Positions 10,627 to 63,967 of a stretch of DNA of 64,000 bases are shown here, one piece after another. This DNA is from Nitrospira sp. Lineage in GTDB: Bacteria; Nitrospirota; Nitrospiria; Nitrospirales; Nitrospiraceae. Each line of letters begins with the position of its first letter. Within the stretch, counting starts at the first letter, position 1. Made by a program: the position numbers and the translations under genes. The notes under the pieces are model-generated. The model searched no databases, was not told the DNA's origin, and worked only from the letters and a program-made list of their open reading frames with translations. Location of the stretch: assembly GCA_022226955.1 (NCBI GenBank), contig CP092079.1, forward strand, positions 833,772 to 897,771, read 5' to 3'.

Positions 10627-11346
10627 TCAGGCGTTGAGAGGAAGGGTCGGTTCTTTTCGGAGAAGCCGGTAGCCGGTTTCGGCGATCTTGACAATGAGAG
10701 GCGTGGCGCTGTTTTGGCCGGTGAGTTTCTGATTGAGTAAGGCGACGAGTTGATCGAGCTCTCGATCATGGGTGAGGGCATCGTTGCCCCACAAGAGGCT
10801 GCGGAGCTCTTCTCGCGGCACGACCTTTCCGGTTGTCTTTGCCAAGCGTAGAAGCGTGTGCCATTCCGGCTTGGTCAGGACCAACTGGCGGCCACGGAAC
10901 GTGGCGACATATTGAGTCGCGTCCAGCGCGAGATCGTCGTCGAGATCGTCGAGGTTTTCCGGCATGCTGGTAGCGAGACGCCGCAGTACGGCATGAATTC
11001 GAGCAACCAGCTCGCGAGGGCTGTAGGGCTTTGTCAGAATATCGTCGGCTCCGCTTTCCAGCCCCGCCACGCGCGAGTCTTCAGAGGACAGCGCCGTCAC
11101 CAGAATGATTCCCATGGACTTCGTTTGCGGATCTTCGCGCAGTCGCCGGCACACATCTTTGCCGCCGATGCCAGGCACCATAAGATCGAGCACGACTAAG
11201 GCCGGCCGGTTTTTCCAAATATCCTGGATGCCGGTCGGTCCATCGAAGGCGATATTGGTGCGAAACGACGCTTTACGGAGGATTTGATCAACCTCCCGCG
11301 CGTGGTCTTGATCGGCTTCGATGATTTGGATGACTTCAAGGCTCAT
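10627..11346 (-). CDS. OmpR-family response regulator
   Basis: 239 aa. Receiver domain (about 1-122) with acidic pocket E10/D12, phospho-acceptor D54 in VVLDLMVPG, T84 and K106, all as expected for an active receiver. A winged-helix DNA-binding domain follows (about 145-230), ending in a GYRLLRKEP wing. No histidine kinase gene is adjacent, so it is an orphan regulator whose partner must be elsewhere. It lies just downstream of the EPS operon on the same strand (148-bp gap) and upstream of sixA; control of EPS genes is possible but only inferred from position. Confidence 0.9.
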   Translation of the reverse strand: MSLEVIQIIEADQDHAREVDQILRKASFRTNIAFDGPTGIQDIWKNRPALVVLDLMVPGIGGKDVCRRLREDPQTKSMGIILVTALSSEDSRVAGLESGADDILTKPYSPRELVARIHAVLRRLATSMPENLDDLDDDLALDATQYVATFRGRQLVLTKPEWHTLLRLAKTTGKVVPREELRSLLWGNDALTHDRELDQLVALLNQKLTGQNSATPLIVKIAETGYRLLRKEPTLPLNA

Positions 11347-54633: not shown

Positions 54634-54665
54634 GTTAACAGGTCTGTAACATTGAGGTTACTGTC
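54634..54665 (+). promoter_or_regulatory. Pho-box-like array A upstream of the first pstS
   Basis: Three half sites GTTAAC, TGTAAC and GGTTAC start at 54634, 54645 and 54656, exactly 11 bp apart. A TAGTAT that could be a -10 box lies at 54683-54688, which would put the last half site over the -35 region, as for PhoB-type activators. The first 24 bases nearly match array B. Confidence 0.65.
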
Positions 54666-54733
54666 TGGAAATTGTCTTCCACTAGTATCGTGTGGGGATA
54701 GTGCAGTGAACTCACTATACGGAGGAATGCAGG

Positions 54734-55822
54734 ATGACAGCACATCGTAGGACGGGGGCGATGGGGATTCTCTTGATGACGGCGCTGTACTGCGGCTACA
54801 CCGGGAATCACTCCTATGCCGAAGTCAGTGGCCCGATGGCTGCGGCAGCGGTCGATAGCGCGTTGGCCCATTACAATCCACAGACTCACATTGCCGGGAC
54901 CTTCAAGATACAGGGTTCCGAAACCATGTATCCCCTGATGAGCCGGTTGACGATGGAGTTTCAGCGCCGGCAGCCGAAAGTGGCGATCGACGTGAAAGGC
55001 GGCGGTTCGACCAAAGCCGTGGCCGAATTTCTTCAGCCGCCGCTGAGCAAAACCGGCAAGGTGATGTGGCAGGAAGACCGGGCCGTCAATTTTAAGATGA
55101 TCGCGACGTCGCGAGAGCTATTCGATGCGGAAGTTAAAGAGTTTGTCGCGCAGCATGGCTACGAGCCAACGGCGGTTCCGGTGGCCGTCGATGCGGTTGC
55201 CTTGTATGTCCATAAGGACAATCCGGTTGCTGGCCTGACCCTCGATCAGGTCGATGCCATGTTTTCGACGACCAGAAATCGAGGGCAGAAAGCGGCGATC
55301 ACGCAATGGGGGCAACTGGGGCTCACCGATGGATGGGAGAAAGCCGCGATTCAGCTGTATGGGCGGGATCGTAAATCCGGCACGCGCGCGTTTTTTCAGG
55401 ACCATTGTCTTGCGGGCGGCGAGTTCATGCCGGGGTTGCATGAAGAGCCTGGCGCCGCATCCGTGATTCTCAACTTGGGCCGGGATCAAGTCGGCATCGG
55501 CTATAGCGGACTGGGGCTTCAATCCTCCACCGTCCGGGTCATTCCCCTCGCGGAGGCTGCGGGCACGCCGTATGTGATTCCTTCGGCTGCGACGGTGGCG
55601 GATCAGAGCTACCCCTTGCGACGGGTCTTGCATCTCTACGTCGATAAGGCGCCGAACGCGCCCATCCCTGCCGCGGCACAGGAGTTTCTGACCTTTATCA
55701 TGACGCAAGAAGGTCAGGAAGCCGTGGCAAAAGCGGGGTTCTTTCCCTTGCCCGCCGGTGAAGTCGCGAAGAGTGCCGTCGCGTTGGGGCTGTCATCCCC
55801 TGTTCCGGCCGCCATGCCGTAG
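54734..55822 (+). CDS. PstS-like phosphate-binding protein, first copy
   Basis: 362 aa. Signal peptide of about 29 residues (ending SYA). Periplasmic binding-protein fold of the phosphate type: FKIQGSETMYPLMSRL, KGGGSTKAVAEFL, AVALYVHKDNPVAGLTLDQVDAMFS, YGRDRKSGTRAFF, and VGIGYSGLG. The GSET and SGT loops bind phosphate oxygens. It is longer than the PstS downstream and shares its fold but not close sequence. No permease adjoins it, so it probably feeds the PstCAB encoded 5 kb away or acts as a sensor or adhesin. GGAGG lies 8 nt before the ATG. Confidence 0.87.
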   Translation: MTAHRRTGAMGILLMTALYCGYTGNHSYAEVSGPMAAAAVDSALAHYNPQTHIAGTFKIQGSETMYPLMSRLTMEFQRRQPKVAIDVKGGGSTKAVAEFLQPPLSKTGKVMWQEDRAVNFKMIATSRELFDAEVKEFVAQHGYEPTAVPVAVDAVALYVHKDNPVAGLTLDQVDAMFSTTRNRGQKAAITQWGQLGLTDGWEKAAIQLYGRDRKSGTRAFFQDHCLAGGEFMPGLHEEPGAASVILNLGRDQVGIGYSGLGLQSSTVRVIPLAEAAGTPYVIPSAATVADQSYPLRRVLHLYVDKAPNAPIPAAAQEFLTFIMTQEGQEAVAKAGFFPLPAGEVAKSAVALGLSSPVPAAMP

Positions 55823-55848
55823 GCCAAAGCCGAACGAGTCGAGTGCGA

Positions 55849-56781
55849 TTACGGTGACGGAAGTTTGCGGGGCGGCTGCTTCTTGGATTTCGACTGATCG
55901 AGTTCGAAGCGCAGCCGTTCCATTTGGCTGTTCAGCTCTTCCATTTTCTTCTTTTGATCGTCGAGGCGGTTGCGGAGATCCAGATTGGAGCTGGTCAGCT
56001 CTCGGATTTGCAGTTGTAATTCGTCGGACGGCACTGCCGGCGATCCGGCCTTCTGAAGCGGCGCAGCCGGCAACTCGATTCCTGCGTGACTTGCGCGAAC
56101 CGGCGAAGGCACCGTGCGTTGCGCCAATACATCTTTGACATTCAGCGACAGATGCACGGTTTCGAAGGGCGCCCATCGAGGCTCTTCCAGATCCGGCACC
56201 ATGGCGGCCTGCGCAGGAGCCGCGACCCAAAGCTTCATGCCTTTTGAATCGCGCAGGTCTTTCAGCTCTCCGCCTCCCGTGTCCGCCTGGATAAAGGCCG
56301 AATGATCCTGCAGGACGATGTGCAGGTACCGGCCTCTCAAAAAGATCGATCCCACCGTGCGATCTTCGCTATAGGCCACGTCCGGTTTGGGCAATGAAAA
56401 AAAGACACGTTCGGCTGGGGTGGCTTGCCGAAGCGCCGTGGCCAGCTGCCCTGAAATCGCCGCCAATTCTTTTGGCGAAAACAACGGAATGGGACGAGGC
56501 GCGCTCAGCATGCCGACGACCGTTCCGCTCCATCCGCTCACTTGAATGCTTCGGAGCAAGGTTTCCAGTTCCGCCGCGGTCAGGTCGGCCGGATGAAGAT
56601 TGCGCACGAGAGTGTCCGATTGTGAGAGCGTCGGATCCGGTTCAAGGCCGATGCGAATCCCCTGCTGATCGTAGATAACGCGGTCTGCCGTGGAAAACAG
56701 GCTGCACGAGGAAAGAATCGGCGCGCCGATCAGAAGCGAACAGGACAGCAACAGGCAGTTTGTGGATCTATTTACTTGCAT
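55849..56781 (-). CDS. Lipoprotein with C-terminal coiled coil
   Basis: 310 aa. The start MQVNRSTN leads to a signal sequence with lipobox LSSC (Cys26). The central domain (about 35-220) is not recognised. The last 60 residues are a heptad-type coiled coil (LRNRLDDQKKKMEELNSQ) with a basic tail. It may reach from the membrane to the cell wall. Upstream in-frame ATGs exist but would bury the lipoprotein signal. It overlaps the preceding small lipoprotein gene by 10 bp and ends the porin operon. It converges with the pstS gene. Confidence 0.72.
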   Translation of the reverse strand: MQVNRSTNCLLLSCSLLIGAPILSSCSLFSTADRVIYDQQGIRIGLEPDPTLSQSDTLVRNLHPADLTAAELETLLRSIQVSGWSGTVVGMLSAPRPIPLFSPKELAAISGQLATALRQATPAERVFFSLPKPDVAYSEDRTVGSIFLRGRYLHIVLQDHSAFIQADTGGGELKDLRDSKGMKLWVAAPAQAAMVPDLEEPRWAPFETVHLSLNVKDVLAQRTVPSPVRASHAGIELPAAPLQKAGSPAVPSDELQLQIRELTSSNLDLRNRLDDQKKKMEELNSQMERLRFELDQSKSKKQPPRKLPSP

Positions 56782-57116
56782 GCGAATTGAATCCCCCATA
56801 TACGGTCCGTTCCGATCTGAGGACCCCAGGCCCGATCGGCGGCTTTGCTGACCTTCGGCACTTCGCCTTCTTTGACGATATGAATCCCAGTGGGACATTT
56901 CTCCTGCATGATGCGTTGCGCATCGTGCCGGCCGTCCGAGGAAAAGACGTCCGCCTCTGACTGGATGGAAAACGTCACGAGCCCGCCAGCCTGGCTTTCA
57001 CGTTGCAGAGAGGCATCGTGCCCGCAGGCGACCAGGCCGGTGAGGGCGATGGCCAGGGCGCCAGCCCTGAAACAAATCGTAATGCCTAGCGCCCAAGCTC
57101 GTTGTGCGACAGGAAT
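56772..57116 (-). CDS. Small lipoprotein with no standard start codon
   Basis: About 114 aa. The frame encodes a good lipoprotein signal (ALGITICFRAGALAIALTGLVAC) and an 80-residue mature part with two further Cys (EKCPTG and the C-terminal FACK), which could pair. No ATG, GTG or TTG in this frame lies near the signal. The best candidate is an ATT at 57116 with GGGAG 8 nt upstream; the nearby ATG at 57123 is in another frame and meets a stop after 12 codons. So it uses a rare start or carries a one-base frameshift. Product family not recognised. Confidence 0.55.
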   Translation of the reverse strand: MPVAQRAWALGITICFRAGALAIALTGLVACGHDASLQRESQAGGLVTFSIQSEADVFSSDGRHDAQRIMQEKCPTGIHIVKEGEVPKVSKAADRAWGPQIGTDRIWGIQFACK

Positions 57117-57130
57117 GGTGTCATCTCCCG

Positions 57131-57667
57131 CTATTTGGCTGCGGCACAGAAGGTTTCTTCTTCCAAGGGCGTATAGCCCCCGCCGAGAGAGGGGAATTCC
57201 GCAATCTCTCGTCCTCCGGTTTTCCAGAGATGGACGCAAGCCGCGAGAACTGTGGGGAGGCTCTTGGGAAGATCGTCGACGGACACCACTCGCGGGGCCT
57301 GCGTCGTGCCCACCACCACAATGCGGTTGCCCGGCTGGAGAAACGACGAATCGATCTTGCCTTGATAGACCACGGCAAACTCCCCGCTCCGTTTTCCCAT
57401 GTCTTTGGGGCCGTAGGCGGGATGCTCGACAATGGGCAGCTGCGCGGTCACGACGGTGATGCTCTCGCCCTTCGTCTCGGCTTGGACAATCCGCCCGCCG
57501 AGTTGAATCTTCTTCGCGTCGGCCTGATTCGGCACCATGCGCCAGTGCGCGAAATCGAAGTTCGGATCCACGCCCTTGAGCGTGTCCGGTGAAAAAATAT
57601 TCGAGGCGGTACAAGCGGCCAGGGTGACCGTGCCTAGCAGCAACAGACTGGTCATGGATCTCTTCAT
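57131..57667 (-). CDS. slp: Slp-family outer-membrane lipoprotein
   Basis: 178 aa. Lipoprotein signal with lipobox LAAC (Cys19). The body matches the Slp/YeaY family: FDFAHWRMVP, VQLGGRIV-like IQLGGRIVQAE, ITVVTAQLPI and GEFAVVYQGKID. Slp proteins are outer-membrane lipoproteins induced by starvation in E. coli; molecular role unknown. Start set by AAGGAGG 7 nt before the ATG. It lies 62 bp after the porin gene. Confidence 0.82.
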   Translation of the reverse strand: MKRSMTSLLLLGTVTLAACTASNIFSPDTLKGVDPNFDFAHWRMVPNQADAKKIQLGGRIVQAETKGESITVVTAQLPIVEHPAYGPKDMGKRSGEFAVVYQGKIDSSFLQPGNRIVVVGTTQAPRVVSVDDLPKSLPTVLAACVHLWKTGGREIAEFPSLGGGYTPLEEETFCAAAK

Positions 57668-57729
57668 ATCGCTCCTCCTTACTCCGAGATTCGTCAGAAT
57701 GCAATAGTCGGCATGCCGGGCGCCTGCGG

Positions 57730-59289
57730 CTACATAAAGCGAACTTGGAATTGCACAAAGAAGGCATTTTGTGCAAACGGGTCCGCTTTGGAATCGAAGG
57801 CCGGCGTGTTGGGACCGGTGCCCAGGCCCGAGTGATGGCGGAACTCGTAGTTGAATTGCAGCTTCGACTGAATCTTCGGCGGGAAGTTTTCGAAGTAATA
57901 GGTCAGTCCCACGATCGATCGAGTGTACATGTCGTTGCCCATATCGGTATTCGGGTCGAACTGTTCGTACATAAAGGTCGGCTCGAAGTTCTCCAATGGC
58001 CCGCTGGTGATGAGGTATTTCGCCAGCACGTACCAGGTCCGCCGGTGCATGCCCGGTGCGCCGGATCCTCCGCAACCGCTGGCGCAATCGCCGTTGGCTG
58101 CCGTTCCCACGGTCGTGGCGTTCGCGCCGTCGTGGCCTTGCCAGTATTCTCCCTGTATCATGAACCCTGGAAAAATCTTCGAGGTGTAGCGGGCATCGAT
58201 CCCATACCGGTCGAACGATCCTTTGCCACGCCCATTGATCAGCGTGCCGGCATTATTGGAGTGGCCTTGAATGGTCGTGAAGCTCACGAAGGAGACGTCG
58301 TTTCCAAACAGTCTAATCCTGGTGTAGAACGCTTTGGGCTGATTGCCACCGCCGACGCCCGATGTGTTGCTGACCAGGCTGTTGGCTTGATAGTTATTGT
58401 TGTTCATCACACCGAATACATATTCCAGGCGATTGGCGATTTTCCCGCGCACGTCGGCGAAATAGTCGCGCTCTTGCAGGAACTCAATTGCGCCGCCGGT
58501 GCCGTTCCTGTTCTGGCCTGGACCGCCGCCTCCGCCGATGGAGGTGAGATAGGGAGAGCTGATTACATCCCGCAGGCCGCCTGAGGTTTCCGTGAAGATG
58601 CCGAAGGGCATCCGGAAGATGCCGAGCCGGATCACATTGAGATTTGGCGCCCACGATTGCACGGGCCGCACGTCGATGTAGGTTTCACGAAAGAACGTCG
58701 TCGAGGTCGGCGTCGAGGCGCCGGCGGTTGGGGTGTTATTGGTCAAGTTGATGCTTTGAAACTCCATCAACGCATGCCAGCGTGGGATGGTATCGCTGAT
58801 CTTTCCCCAGAACAGCAACTCTGAACGGCGGATGGACAAGCTGTCATGACTCCGCCCTTCCGGCACGTTCGCATTGACGTGGCCGTAAAGGAATTGCAAG
58901 GCATTGAGTCCGAAGTTGACCTTGTCCCGCAGCAGCGGCAACAGTTCTGTTTTCCCCTTCCATTCTTCCAGCGAATCGATCCGGCGGGATTGGTCGGCGA
59001 CTTTGTATTCCTGCTCGGCGCGGATTTGAATCCACTCGTCCATATTGATCGTGCCTTTTTGGAGGAGGAGATCCTCAATGGACATGCCGCCAGGCGGCAG
59101 TTCCCTGGCCGGTGCCGGCCCTTGTCCATCCGGCGTGGACGGAGTCGCCGCTTGCGCGGTGACGACGGGCGATCCGCCCTGGTCTTGCGTGCGCTGCGGC
59201 TCTGCGGCACGCGCATCCGCCTGCGGCATGGCTAGCGCCATGGCCGTCAGTATGGCTGCAATGTGGACTGTCCTTTGAAGTCCTCTCAT
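57730..59289 (-). CDS. Phosphate-selective-porin-like outer-membrane protein
   Basis: 519 aa. Signal peptide of about 27 residues (ending ARA). A Pro/Gln-rich stretch and a short helical region (SRRIDSLEEWKGK) precede a beta barrel with alternating aromatic strands that ends VQFQVRFM, a typical last strand. The barrel resembles OprP/OprO-type porins (ISDTIPRWHALMEF, FRMPFGIFTETSG). Start fixed at MRGLQRT with AGGGGG 9 nt upstream. Array B of 11-bp-spaced sites lies 90 bp before the start, which supports phosphate-starvation control. Ion preference is inferred from context. Confidence 0.78.
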   Translation of the reverse strand: MRGLQRTVHIAAILTAMALAMPQADARAAEPQRTQDQGGSPVVTAQAATPSTPDGQGPAPARELPPGGMSIEDLLLQKGTINMDEWIQIRAEQEYKVADQSRRIDSLEEWKGKTELLPLLRDKVNFGLNALQFLYGHVNANVPEGRSHDSLSIRRSELLFWGKISDTIPRWHALMEFQSINLTNNTPTAGASTPTSTTFFRETYIDVRPVQSWAPNLNVIRLGIFRMPFGIFTETSGGLRDVISSPYLTSIGGGGGPGQNRNGTGGAIEFLQERDYFADVRGKIANRLEYVFGVMNNNNYQANSLVSNTSGVGGGNQPKAFYTRIRLFGNDVSFVSFTTIQGHSNNAGTLINGRGKGSFDRYGIDARYTSKIFPGFMIQGEYWQGHDGANATTVGTAANGDCASGCGGSGAPGMHRRTWYVLAKYLITSGPLENFEPTFMYEQFDPNTDMGNDMYTRSIVGLTYYFENFPPKIQSKLQFNYEFRHHSGLGTGPNTPAFDSKADPFAQNAFFVQFQVRFM

Positions 59290-59366
59290 CTCGACGTACC
59301 CCCTTCGATTGAGTTGAATGTCGATCGCTTCATGATCGCAAGCCTGTTCTCTCATGAAGGGATCAC

Positions 59367-59400
59367 GGGACAATTGCCGGCATGTTACAGCGCTGTTAAC
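59367..59400 (-). promoter_or_regulatory. Pho-box-like array B upstream of the porin
   Basis: On the minus strand GTTAACAG (starting 59400) is followed 11 bp later by TGTAACAT and then by a degenerate third site. By hand alignment 25 of 35 positions equal array A, including the identical CTGTAACAT block at the same offset. Confidence 0.62.
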
Positions 59401-59468
59401 AATCCAGCCGCCTCCCGGTTCTCGATATACGGGAGTATCCCAACAGGCGGTGTGTTGGGCCAAAAGAA

Positions 59469-59501
59469 GTTAACGCACTGTTAACAGCCCGGTAACGTTC
59501 C
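59469..59501 (+). promoter_or_regulatory. Pho-box-like array C upstream of the second pstS
   Basis: Three half sites GTTAAC (59469), GTTAAC (59480) and GGTAAC (59491), each exactly 11 bp apart. The second pstS starts 86 bp downstream. Confidence 0.65.
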
Positions 59502-59586
59502 GGGAAATTCTCGGGCGTAAGGTGCCTTCTCAATGAGCGTTGGTATGACGATACAAGCCACGGTGGTTGTGAAAAGGAGCACATGT

Positions 59587-60603
59587 ATGCGGAGACTGTT
59601 ATCGATTGGATTAAGCGCGTGCCTCTCTTGCGCGGTTGGAACTGTCATGGTGTGGCCCGTTGAGACGGGGTACTCGGCATCCGCGACATTGATCAAAGTC
59701 GATGGGTCGAGCACGGTGTTTCCGATTACAGAGGCCGTGGCTGAGGAGTTTCAAAAGGAGACGAGGGGGTCGGTCCGGGTGACGGTCGGTATTTCAGGAA
59801 CCGGCGGCGGTTTCAAAAAGTTTTGCCGGGGCGAGATCGACGTCCAGGATGCTTCGCGTCCGATTTCAACCGGCGAATTGGACGCCTGCCTGGCAGGTGG
59901 CGTGCAATTCTATGAATTGCCGATTGCCTTCGATGCGTTGACCGTGGCGGTAAGTCCGCAAGCAACCTGGGTGGACTCCCTGACCGTGGAAGAATTGAAA
60001 CGTATGTGGGAGCCCGGCGCGCAAGGGAAGATCGCCAAGTGGAGCCAGATCCGTTCAACCTGGCCCGATCAGCCGCTGAAACTCTTCGGCGCCGGCTCCG
60101 ATTCCGGCACCTTCGATTACTTCACCGAAGCCATCGTCGGGAAAGCCAAAGCCAGCCGGGGCGATTTTACTGCCAGTGAAGACGACAACACGCTGGTCCA
60201 GGGCATCGCGAACGATACACAAGCGCTCGGCTACATTCCCTTTGCCTATTACGAGCCGAACAAGAAACGATTGAAAGCGCTCTCCATCGATGGCGGCCAT
60301 GGGCCAGTGAGCCCGTCGCGCGAGACGGTCGAAAGCGGTTCCTACCAGCCGCTCTCGCGTCCACTGTTTATCTATATCAGCGCAAAGTCCGCTGCCAGGC
60401 CTGAAGTGAAACAGTTTGTCGAGTTTTACCTGGCGCAAGTCCCGGCCCTGGCGCCGCAAGTCAAATATGTTCCGCTGCCGCCGCAAGCCTATGCGCTGGC
60501 CGGCGAGCATTTCAAAAACGGACGGCAGGGAACCGCGTTTCAGGGCGGCTCGACGATTGGGTTGAAGATCGAAGAGCTGCTCCGGCGCGAAGCCACGCGT
60601 TAA
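59587..60603 (+). CDS. pstS: Phosphate ABC transporter substrate-binding protein PstS
   Basis: 338 aa. Signal peptide of about 31 residues. PstS fold: [43 protein letters not shown] and [16 protein letters not shown] hold the phosphate-binding Ser, Thr, Asp and Arg. It captures phosphate in the periplasm for PstCA. Start chosen by GGAG 8 nt before the ATG; the frame opens further upstream without a signal peptide. It is the first gene of the pst operon with pstC 3 bp later. Confidence 0.93.
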
Positions 60604-60606
60604 AGG

Positions 60607-61560
60607 ATGGATGCGATGGAAGCCAATGTCGTCGAGATGCCTGTCGAAAAGAACGTCATGTGCGGGAGTCCTGCGCCTCGATTCGTCCCTCGTCTCCAAG
60701 AAAAAGTGATCGAACGGCTCCTGCAACTAGCTGCCTGCGTCTCGGTCGCGATTACGCTCGGGATCGTGGGGATTCTCTCGTATGAATCCCTGCTCTTTTT
60801 TCAACAGGTCTCAATTGTCGATTTTATGACCGACCGGCAATGGACGCCGCTCTTTGCCGACGCGCATTACGGGATTCTTCCCCTCGTGTCGGGCACGCTT
60901 GTCACGACGACGGTCGCGTTACTCGTGGCTATTCCGATGGGTAGCCTGATCGCGATCTATTTGAGCGAGTATGCGTCGCGCGGGGTGAGGGAATGCGTGA
61001 AGCCGGCGTTGGAACTGTTGAGCGCCGTGCCGACCGTCGTCTATGGGTATTTCGCGCTGCTCTTCGTGACCCCTACCCTTCAAAAACTCTGGCCCGGCCT
61101 CCCCGGTTTCAACATGCTGAGCGCCGGGCTCGTCATCGGGCTCATGATCGTTCCCTATGTCAGCTCCGTCAGCGAGGATGCCATGCGCGCGGTTCCGGTC
61201 TATCTGCGCGAAGGCGCATTTGCCCTGGGGGCGACTCGCATGCAAACGGCGTTGCGGGTGGTCTTTCCCTCGGCCCTGTCTGGTATTACCGCGGCCTATG
61301 TGCTGGGTGTCTCCCGGGCGATCGGTGAGACGATGGTGGTGGCGATTGCCGCTGGCATGCAACCGATGCTGACGCTTAATCCATTGGAACCGGCGGCGAC
61401 GATGACGGCGTATATTGTTCAAGTCAGCCTAGGCGATGTTCCCCATGGCAGCGTGGGCTATCGGACGATTTTTGCGACCGGGCTGATGCTGTTATCGATC
61501 ACCTTGCTGTTCAACATTGCCGGCCATGTCCTCAAAAAACGGTATCGACAGGTGTATTGA
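60607..61560 (+). CDS. pstC: Phosphate ABC transporter permease PstC
   Basis: 317 aa with six membrane segments, the first at about 40-62 after a longish cytoplasmic N terminus. The binding-protein-dependent permease motif (EGAFALGATRMQTALRVVFPS) is at about 205-225. It forms the channel with PstA. The gap to pstA is one base. Confidence 0.93.
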   Translation: MDAMEANVVEMPVEKNVMCGSPAPRFVPRLQEKVIERLLQLAACVSVAITLGIVGILSYESLLFFQQVSIVDFMTDRQWTPLFADAHYGILPLVSGTLVTTTVALLVAIPMGSLIAIYLSEYASRGVRECVKPALELLSAVPTVVYGYFALLFVTPTLQKLWPGLPGFNMLSAGLVIGLMIVPYVSSVSEDAMRAVPVYLREGAFALGATRMQTALRVVFPSALSGITAAYVLGVSRAIGETMVVAIAAGMQPMLTLNPLEPAATMTAYIVQVSLGDVPHGSVGYRTIFATGLMLLSITLLFNIAGHVLKKRYRQVY

Positions 61561-61561
61561 T

Positions 61562-62470
61562 ATGACGCCGATCCAACGGAAAATCGCGAGACGCAAAGCC
61601 CTCGATCGGTTCTTCGCCTTTGAAGGACTCACGGTCATGGCCCTGGCCCTGCTGGTGTTGCTGGCGTTGGTCGGGCAGTTGATGGCCGATGGACTCACTC
61701 GGTTGTCCTGGCAGTTTCTGACCTCCTTTCCTTCGAGATTTCCGGCCCAGGCCGGCATTATCAGCGCGTGGGTCGGGACGATCCTCGTGATGCTGGTGAC
61801 TGCGCTGGCGGCGATTCCCTTGGGCGTCGGCGCGGCGATCTATCTGGAGGAGTATGCGCCGAAAAACTGGGCCACGGAGATCATCGAGATCAATATCGCT
61901 ACTCTGGCCGGTGTGCCGTCGATTGTGTATGGGCTGATGGCCCTTGGGCTCTTGGTGTATCAGTTCCATCTCGGCCAAAGCTTTCTGACGGCCGGTCTGA
62001 CGTTGGGCATGCTGATTCTTCCAATGATCATCATCGCGACGCGCGAGGCCATCAGAAGCGTGCCGCCCTCTGTCCGCGAAGCCGCCTATGCGCTTGGCGC
62101 GACGAAGTGGCAGACGGTGCGCGACCACGTCGTTCCCTACTCGATGGGAGGCATGTTGACGGGCATGATTTTGGCGCTGTCGCGCGCCGTCGGCGAAACG
62201 GCGCCGCTTATTACCGTGGGCGCCTTGTCGTTCATTGCCTTTCTCCCCCACCCGCCATGGCAGGATGCGTTTCCGTTTATCTCCTTCGAGTGGTTATTCG
62301 ATCCCTTTACGGTAATGCCGATTCAAATGTTCAATTGGGTGTCCCGGCCGCAAGAGGAGTTTCACGTGAATGCCGCGGCAGCCGGTTTGATCTTGCTGGC
62401 GATGACGCTGGCGATGAATGCGGTCGCCATTGCGATTCGGGCGCGTTTCAGAAAACGGATTCACTGGTGA
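61562..62470 (+). CDS. pstA: Phosphate ABC transporter permease PstA
   Basis: 302 aa, six membrane segments, with [20 protein letters not shown] as the ATPase-contact loop. It starts [12 protein letters not shown] one base after the pstC stop; the frame extends 15 codons into pstC but the short start fits the family. Confidence 0.93.
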
Positions 62471-62474
62471 TGCC

Positions 62475-63260
62475 ATGAAAGCGATGAATGTCTCTCAAAC
62501 GGTATTGAAAGCGGAAACGCGCGGCTTGAATTTCTATTACGGCGAAGCCCAGGCGCTGCATAGCCTGTCGCTGCCGATCTATGACCGCTGCGTGACGGCC
62601 CTAATCGGTCCGTCCGGCTGCGGAAAGACGACCTATCTGCGCTGCCTCAATCGCATGCATGACCTGTATCCCGGCAATCGGTACGAAGGCGAGGTGCTGC
62701 TGTATCCGGATCGTGTGAATATCGTGGGGCCGGAGATCGACCCGATTGAAGTGCGCATGCGCATCGGCATGGTCTTTCAAAAGCCCAATCCCTTTCCCAA
62801 GTCCATCTATGAAAATGTGGCCTATGGCTTGCGGATTCGGAATGTGTCTAACAAGCGCGATCTCGACGCGGTGGTGGAGCGGGCATTGCGCGAGGCGGCT
62901 TTGTGGGGAGAGGTCAAAGACCGCCTGCAGGCCTCCGCGATGAATCTCTCCGGCGGGCAACAGCAGCGCTTGTGCATTGCCAGAGCGCTGGCGACCAGCC
63001 CGGAACTGCTCTTGTTCGATGAGCCGACTTCGGCGCTGGATCCGACCGCCACGTCCCGCATTGAAGAACTGGTTGCGGAGCTGAAACAGCGTGTTGCCAT
63101 TGTCATGGTCACCCATAACATGCAACAGGCGGCCCGGATCTCGGATTACACGGCCTTTATGTATGAAGGCCGCATGGTGGAATACGACCGGACCGAGACG
63201 ATTTTCACCAACCCCTCCGTCAAACTGACGGAAGACTATATCACCGGTCGATTCGGGTGA
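62475..63260 (+). CDS. pstB: Phosphate ABC transporter ATP-binding protein PstB
   Basis: 261 aa. Walker A GPSGCGKT at 45-52, Q-loop VFQKPNPFP, signature LSGGQQQRL, Walker [14 protein letters not shown], and switch His in VMVTHNM. All as in active PstB. The ATG lies 4 bp after the pstA stop; the frame is open into pstA but without homology. Confidence 0.95.
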
Positions 63261-63277
63261 TAGCCAGGAGCGGCGTG

Positions 63278-63967
63278 ATGCAACGGCATATCGATCAAGA
63301 ACTCAGCGACCTGAAAGACCAATTGCTCCGGATGGGAGCATTGGTCGAAGAGCAGATCGAGCGCGCGATCAAGGCGCTGACCGAGCGAGACGTGGCGCTC
63401 GCCTCGCAGGTCATCGAACGGGATGTCCTGGTCAATCGCTTCGATGTGGACATCGATGAAACCTGCATTCGCTTGCTGGCTTTGCAAGCGCCAGCGGCAG
63501 GCGATTTACGTTTTGTCACCACGGCGATGAAAATCTCCACCGAGCTCGAACGCATGAGCGATCTGGCCGAGAATATCTGCGAGCGCGTCATCGAACTGAA
63601 CGAAGAGCCGCAGCTCAAGCCCTATATGGATCTTCCGCGGATGGCGGCCTGGACCATGAAGATGGTGCACGAAGCGCTGGAGTCGTTTGTACGCCAAGAT
63701 GCCGTCCTAGCTAGGAAGGTCTGCGCCGACGATGACTTTGTCGATAATCTCACCCACCAACTGTTTCGTGAACTGGTCTCCTTTATGCTCGAAAACCCCG
63801 CCACAATCACGCGAGCCATCCGCCTTACTTTTATTGGAAAATACATCGAGCGGATTGCCGACCATGCGACGAACATTGGGGAACTCGTGGTCTATATGGT
63901 GGAAGGCAAAATCGTGCGCCATATGACCCTACCCTTCGGCCATTCAAAATCATCCTCCAAGACGTAA
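63278..63967 (+). CDS. phoU: Phosphate signalling regulator PhoU
   Basis: 229 aa, all alpha-helical, two PhoU domains each with the metal-site motif: ERMSDLAENI (first) and ERIADHATNI (second). It links PstSCAB activity to the PhoR/PhoB sensor pair. Start chosen by AGGAG 7 nt before the ATG. No phoR or phoB lies in the window. The last 33 bases of the window after it show no feature. Confidence 0.94.
   Translation: MQRHIDQELSDLKDQLLRMGALVEEQIERAIKALTERDVALASQVIERDVLVNRFDVDIDETCIRLLALQAPAAGDLRFVTTAMKISTELERMSDLAENICERVIELNEEPQLKPYMDLPRMAAWTMKMVHEALESFVRQDAVLARKVCADDDFVDNLTHQLFRELVSFMLENPATITRAIRLTFIGKYIERIADHATNIGELVVYMVEGKIVRHMTLPFGHSKSSSKT

Follow-up and report, generated by a model that had tools for sequence, protein, structure and literature searches.

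Arrays of 11-bp direct repeats upstream of phosphate-uptake genes as the probable Pho box of Nitrospira

Three repeat arrays and the genes that follow them

The window analysed here, i.e., a 64,000-nucleotide stretch of the single 3.64 Mb contig of a Nitrospira sp. genome, contains three arrays of short direct repeats, which we designate A, B and C. Array A precedes a pstS-like gene (54734-55822, plus strand), the product of which is of the PBP_like_2 type and scored 175 bits against TIGR02136, under the cut-off of 206.6. Array B precedes a pstS-pstC-pstA-pstB-phoU cluster on the same strand, all five members of which scored over the cut-offs of their family models, i.e., pstS (59587-60603; TIGR02136, 288 bits), pstC (60607-61560; TIGR02138, 258 bits), pstA (61517-62470; TIGR00974, 280 bits), pstB (62472-63260; TIGR00972, 376 bits) and phoU (63257-63967; TIGR02135, 238 bits). 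The likely start of pstS is the ATG at 59587, after AAAAGGAG; a longer open reading frame (ORF) begins at 59533. The two PstS proteins, encoded 4 kb apart, are very different from one another, and as many as four PstS-type matches were found per relative, several of them preceded by a box of their own. The closest named PstS relatives (86-87% identity) come from Nitrospira metagenome-assembled genomes (MAGs).

Array C lies on the minus strand, in divergent orientation, and precedes a gene (57730-59289, minus) whose product is predicted to be an outer-membrane porin, divergently related to Porin_O_P. This protein had no Pfam match of its own, PF07396 (Porin_O_P) included; in a profile comparison, however, the N-terminal third (~150 columns) matched the Porin_O_P proteins of relatives with 96% probability. 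Its profile matched no solved structure, and a structure model built without an alignment was uninformative (pLDDT 32). The next gene, encoding an Slp-family outer-membrane lipoprotein (57131-57685, minus; PF03843, E 2.6e-13), is probably on the same transcript. The orthologous porin gene of one relative (G058) follows the boxed pstS-like gene in the same orientation.

Direct reading of the sequence confirmed the predicted TAAC-type arrays, with steps of exactly 11 bp between half-sites throughout. Array A (54634-54677, plus) consists of the units GTTAACAGGTC TGTAACATTGA GGTTACTGTCT GGAAATTGTCT, with half-sites GTTAAC at 54634, TGTAAC at 54645 and GGTTAC at 54656. Array B (59469-59512, plus), with units GTTAACGCACT GTTAACAGCCC GGTAACGTTCC GGGAAATTCTC, has GTTAAC at 59469, GTTAAC at 59480 and GGTAAC at 59491. 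In array C (59357-59400, minus; units GTTAACAGCGC TGTAACATGCC GGCAATTGTCC CGTGATCCCTT), the half-sites are GTTAAC at 59400-59395, TGTAAC at 59389-59384 and GGCAAT at 59378-59373. The 25 matches in 35 positions previously counted hold for array A against the minus-strand array, the other two pairs giving 20 and 21 of 35. The three half-sites first described proved to be real but to belong to a larger unit, since a fourth, weaker half-site follows in each array (GGAAAT in A, GGGAAA in B and CGTGAT in C) and the full unit ends in a −10 box at a fixed distance. This box follows the fourth half-site by exactly 10 bp in A (TAGTAT, 54683-54688, plus) and B (TAAGGT, 59518-59523, plus). In C, TANNNT is absent from the standard −10 place, which is occupied by GAGAAC. 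An ordinary −35/−10 promoter was not found before any of the three arrays.

Within the window, the paired half-site pattern KKTAACN5KKTAAC occurred seven times when one mismatch was allowed, always inside the three arrays, with 0.6 occurrences expected and at most 3 found in any of 100 shuffles. Genome-wide, the exact pattern was found at six places, three of which are arrays A, B and C. With one mismatch, it also matched unrelated places, and two half-sites alone are therefore not specific. We rejected this pair as a genome-wide marker; it was too loose, in that unrelated genes were matched and the reversed control was commoner still.

Conservation and specificity of the complete unit

A search with the PstS protein retrieved loci from 33 of 39 related genomes. 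On the gene strand and without gaps, the array precedes 26 pstS genes in relatives from the same genus and order, some with PstS proteins that share just 24-29% identity with the query. Uninterrupted direct repeats of 4 x 11 bp are thus shared by A, B, C and 26 relatives; the best form of the half-site is (T/C/G)(G/T)TAAC(A/G). Alignment of the columns without gaps gave four half-sites, 10 bp and then TANNNT. Of 25 relatives, 19 have TANNNT exactly there; no other offset up to 8 bp away yielded it in more than one relative. As the −10 box had played no part in finding or aligning these sites, its recurrence constitutes independent support. Absence of the pattern upstream of pst genes in relatives had been named as evidence that would speak against a Pho box, and the opposite was observed.

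We then scored the window with a 56-column matrix built from the pst promoters of 25 relatives, all window sequence being excluded. The three best places were A (37.2), B (23.6) and C (12.0), followed at 4.6 by array B shifted by one repeat. Controls comprised 380 kb of evenly spaced stretches from the same genome, together with genome-wide pattern searches. In the 380 kb, a single place exceeded 5, with a score of 9.3 (genome position 479232, minus); this is a candidate weak site itself. The array there is followed after ~80 nt by a 56-aa ORF, which contains CxxC pairs and matched no Pfam family. Simulated DNA with the dinucleotide composition of the window reached a maximum of 6.6 in 18.9 million positions, and in an AT-rich random null of the same size, 17 positions scored at least 12. 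By these comparisons, arrays A and B are secure and array C is good but weaker. Arrays orthologous to C scored 12.8 and 15.0 in two relatives; of the three, only C could represent a weak or decayed site.

The full pattern, i.e., half-sites plus −10 box, occurs without mismatch at three places in the genome, namely A, B and a site ~2.4 kb past the end of the window (genome 900136-900190, minus; matrix score 32.1). Downstream of the latter are a CBS-domain gene, a PsiE-family (phosphate-starvation-inducible E) gene over the cut-off for PF06146, and a small winged-helix-like ORF. As boxes in many relatives are followed by genes of these kinds, the set looks like an uncharacterised phosphate-starvation operon.

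Allowing one mismatch, the full pattern was present in 57 of 59 Nitrospira genomes, with 142 matches compared with 7 for the reversed pattern (hand sums from a per-genome table). Among loci chosen by the pattern only, there were 31 matches, one of them at a locus end; 29 of the 30 others had the start of a PstS, CBS, PsiE or porin gene within 450 nt, and not the equal frequency before unrelated genes that would have counted against the proposal. In a wider, partly hand-picked set, such genes lay downstream of 69 of 77 matches and 0 of 190 random places. In both counts, the reference proteins include some first met downstream of the pattern, and the CBS class is accordingly partly circular. For PstS, PsiE and Porin_O_P, the link to phosphate comes from independent family models. 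The original prediction had foreseen matches before phosphatase, phoB or pst-like genes. Relatives indeed had a calcineurin-like phosphoesterase behind one match and Porin_O_P porins behind others, in addition to pstS; phoB, however, lacks a box in the present genome.

At the level of the phylum Nitrospirota, 137 of 198 genomes had a match. A scan of 53 named PstS loci from many phyla with a loose model, to be taken as indicative, pointed to boxes of the TAAC type in Nitrospinota and some 'Deltaproteobacteria' as well as in other Nitrospirota. Two 'Deltaproteobacteria' MAGs (L077, L078) and one member of the Nitrospinota (L142) have similar GTAAC or TTAAC arrays upstream of pstS, followed at equal distance by a TA that resembles a −10 element. 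These sequences suggest that the box type may extend beyond Nitrospirota. A broader proposal, which we consider possible and a little short of probable, is that a TGTAAC-type Pho box with E. coli spacing is general in Nitrospirota and several neighbouring phyla, the CTGTCAT form thus being derived, and that the regulon regularly includes the CBS/PsiE operon.

Candidate regulator and competing explanations

The protein in this genome that best matches PhoB is encoded at 1743960-1744667; its best family is TIGR02154 (250 bits, under the strict cut-off of 296). It is followed by a gene for a HAMP-PAS-HisKA kinase that scored over the PnpS cut-off, and genes beside the pair encode a Pit-type phosphate transporter and a PhoU-like protein. 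PhoB orthologues were found in 57 of 59 genomes of the genus. The matrix scan detected no box at phoBR in this genome, a situation also published for several cyanobacteria (PMC1906773). Many Nitrospira relatives have two PhoB-like regulators, whereas the present genome has just one at that threshold; by coordinate comparison, the second copy is ~7 kb from the boxed pstS in several genomes (G042, G022, G072 and G006). At least three other full-length OmpR-type regulators are encoded in the genome. A divergent regulator of this type in the window (~10663-11331, minus) scored 148 bits against the PhoB model and is not linked to the boxes. The DNA-binding helix of PhoB (TVDVHIRRL) is identical to that of E. 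coli, and the wing reads TVRGTGYRF versus SVKSLGYKL (in the order compared, Nitrospira versus E. coli). This comparison of helix and wing yielded no tested explanation for the changed half-site.

From the observed array, spacing, −10 box, conservation, target genes and presence of phoBR, we infer PhoB binding, phosphate dependence and activation. It is very likely, on this sequence evidence, that the arrays are PhoB-activated promoters and represent the Pho box of Nitrospira, as originally proposed. Under low phosphate, a PhoR/PnpS-type kinase would phosphorylate PhoB, the genes for both being neighbours elsewhere in the genome. Two PhoB dimers would then bind head to tail to the four 11-bp half-sites on one face of the DNA, the last half-site lying approximately at the −35 place, 10 bp upstream of the −10 box. 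Because this half-site occupies about the −35 place, PhoB would recruit sigma-70 RNA polymerase although the promoter lacks a −35 element. The genes switched on would comprise those for the phosphate binding proteins, the Pst transporter genes together with phoU, the outer-membrane porin gene and the CBS-domain/PsiE operon just outside the window.

The OmpR/PhoB family overall prefers direct repeats ~10-11 bp apart and, given the other OmpR-type regulators encoded in the genome, one of them in the window, the identity of the regulator rests on the target genes and the geometry. The arrays might accordingly be read by another member of the family and belong to the response to some other stress in which phosphate genes are also required. 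We regard this as improbable, as the targets are almost exclusively phosphate genes and PhoB, which leads the next-best regulator by 50 bits, co-occurs with the boxes throughout the genus. Even less credible is a relationship to CtrA, whose sites resemble TTAA-N7-TTAA, likewise with an 11-bp period. Array B does contain this sequence, but the conserved core is (G/T)TAAC, and the second half-site is GTAAC, not TTAAC, in most relatives. Moreover, the targets are phosphate genes and not cell-cycle genes, and the CtrA model fell far under its cut-off on the protein that the PhoB model matched (152 versus 350 bits).

That the arrays reflect chance or general AT-rich promoter sequence is similarly most unlikely. 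Pairs of TAAC half-sites 11 bp apart do occur with one mismatch at unrelated places; against this stand the shuffles, the reversed-pattern control, the matrix controls, the target-gene counts and the simulated DNA, which together refute chance as the origin of A and B. A PhoB-activated Pho box thus remains our preferred reading.

Relation to known Pho boxes and significance

In the E. coli MG1655 record, phoA has TGTCAC-N10-TATAGT and pstS has four half-sites ending in TGTCAC-N10-TATTTT, consistent with the published rule that the box stands 10 bp upstream of TAN3T/A (PMC1906773). The Nitrospira unit shares with these promoters the 11-bp direct repeats and the last half-site 10 bp before the −10 box and, with pstS, the number of four half-sites. 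The half-site itself differs, being TGTCAY in E. coli and TGTAAC in Nitrospira, and none of the arrays is built on CTGTCAT/C. Nor was the E. coli-type CTGTCAYN4CTGTCAY enriched in the genome, with 597 matches compared with 538 for the reversed pattern at up to three mismatches and none below two.

The dissimilarity to the E. coli box had been correctly noted; the nearest box among those compared, however, is that of Desulfovibrio vulgaris PhoB and not the Bacillus TTAACA type. The D. vulgaris PhoB (DVU1083) box, derived from DNA-affinity mapping, consists of direct repeats of (C/T)GT(n)AC (PMC3333781). By column counts, the Nitrospira half-site (T/C)GTAAC fits (C/T)GTNAC, and both systems have pst targets. 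The published spacer between the 6-bp repeats is 4 bp, whereas it is 5 bp in Nitrospira, where four half-sites and a fixed −10 box are also defined over a genus. The cyanobacterial SphR box, CTTAACCT in three or more repeats (PMC1906773), has the TTAAC core, the 11-bp period and pst targets in common with the arrays. It favours CTTAACC, whereas the Nitrospira half-sites show a preference for (T/C)GTAACA and have a fixed, E. coli-like spacing to the −10 box. The Bacillus PhoP box, TTAACA, shares the TAACA core; in Nitrospira, however, the first half-sites are GTTAACA/TGTAACA and the later ones GTAA(C/T) or G(N)AAT. A Pho box of Nitrospira was not found in the open literature searched, subscription journals lying mostly outside its scope.

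Taken together, the Nitrospira box is very probably a well-supported further case of a known kind of Pho box, and as such is useful rather than surprising. Between distant phyla, the promoter geometry is kept, with changes in the letters of the half-site. For Nitrospira, which are the principal nitrite-oxidising bacteria in soils and wastewater plants, the analysis provides a specific, usable Pho box, and its matrix would allow phosphate-starvation genes to be called straight from Nitrospira genomes and metagenomes. It also ties an uncharacterised CBS/PsiE operon, through its box, to phosphate starvation.
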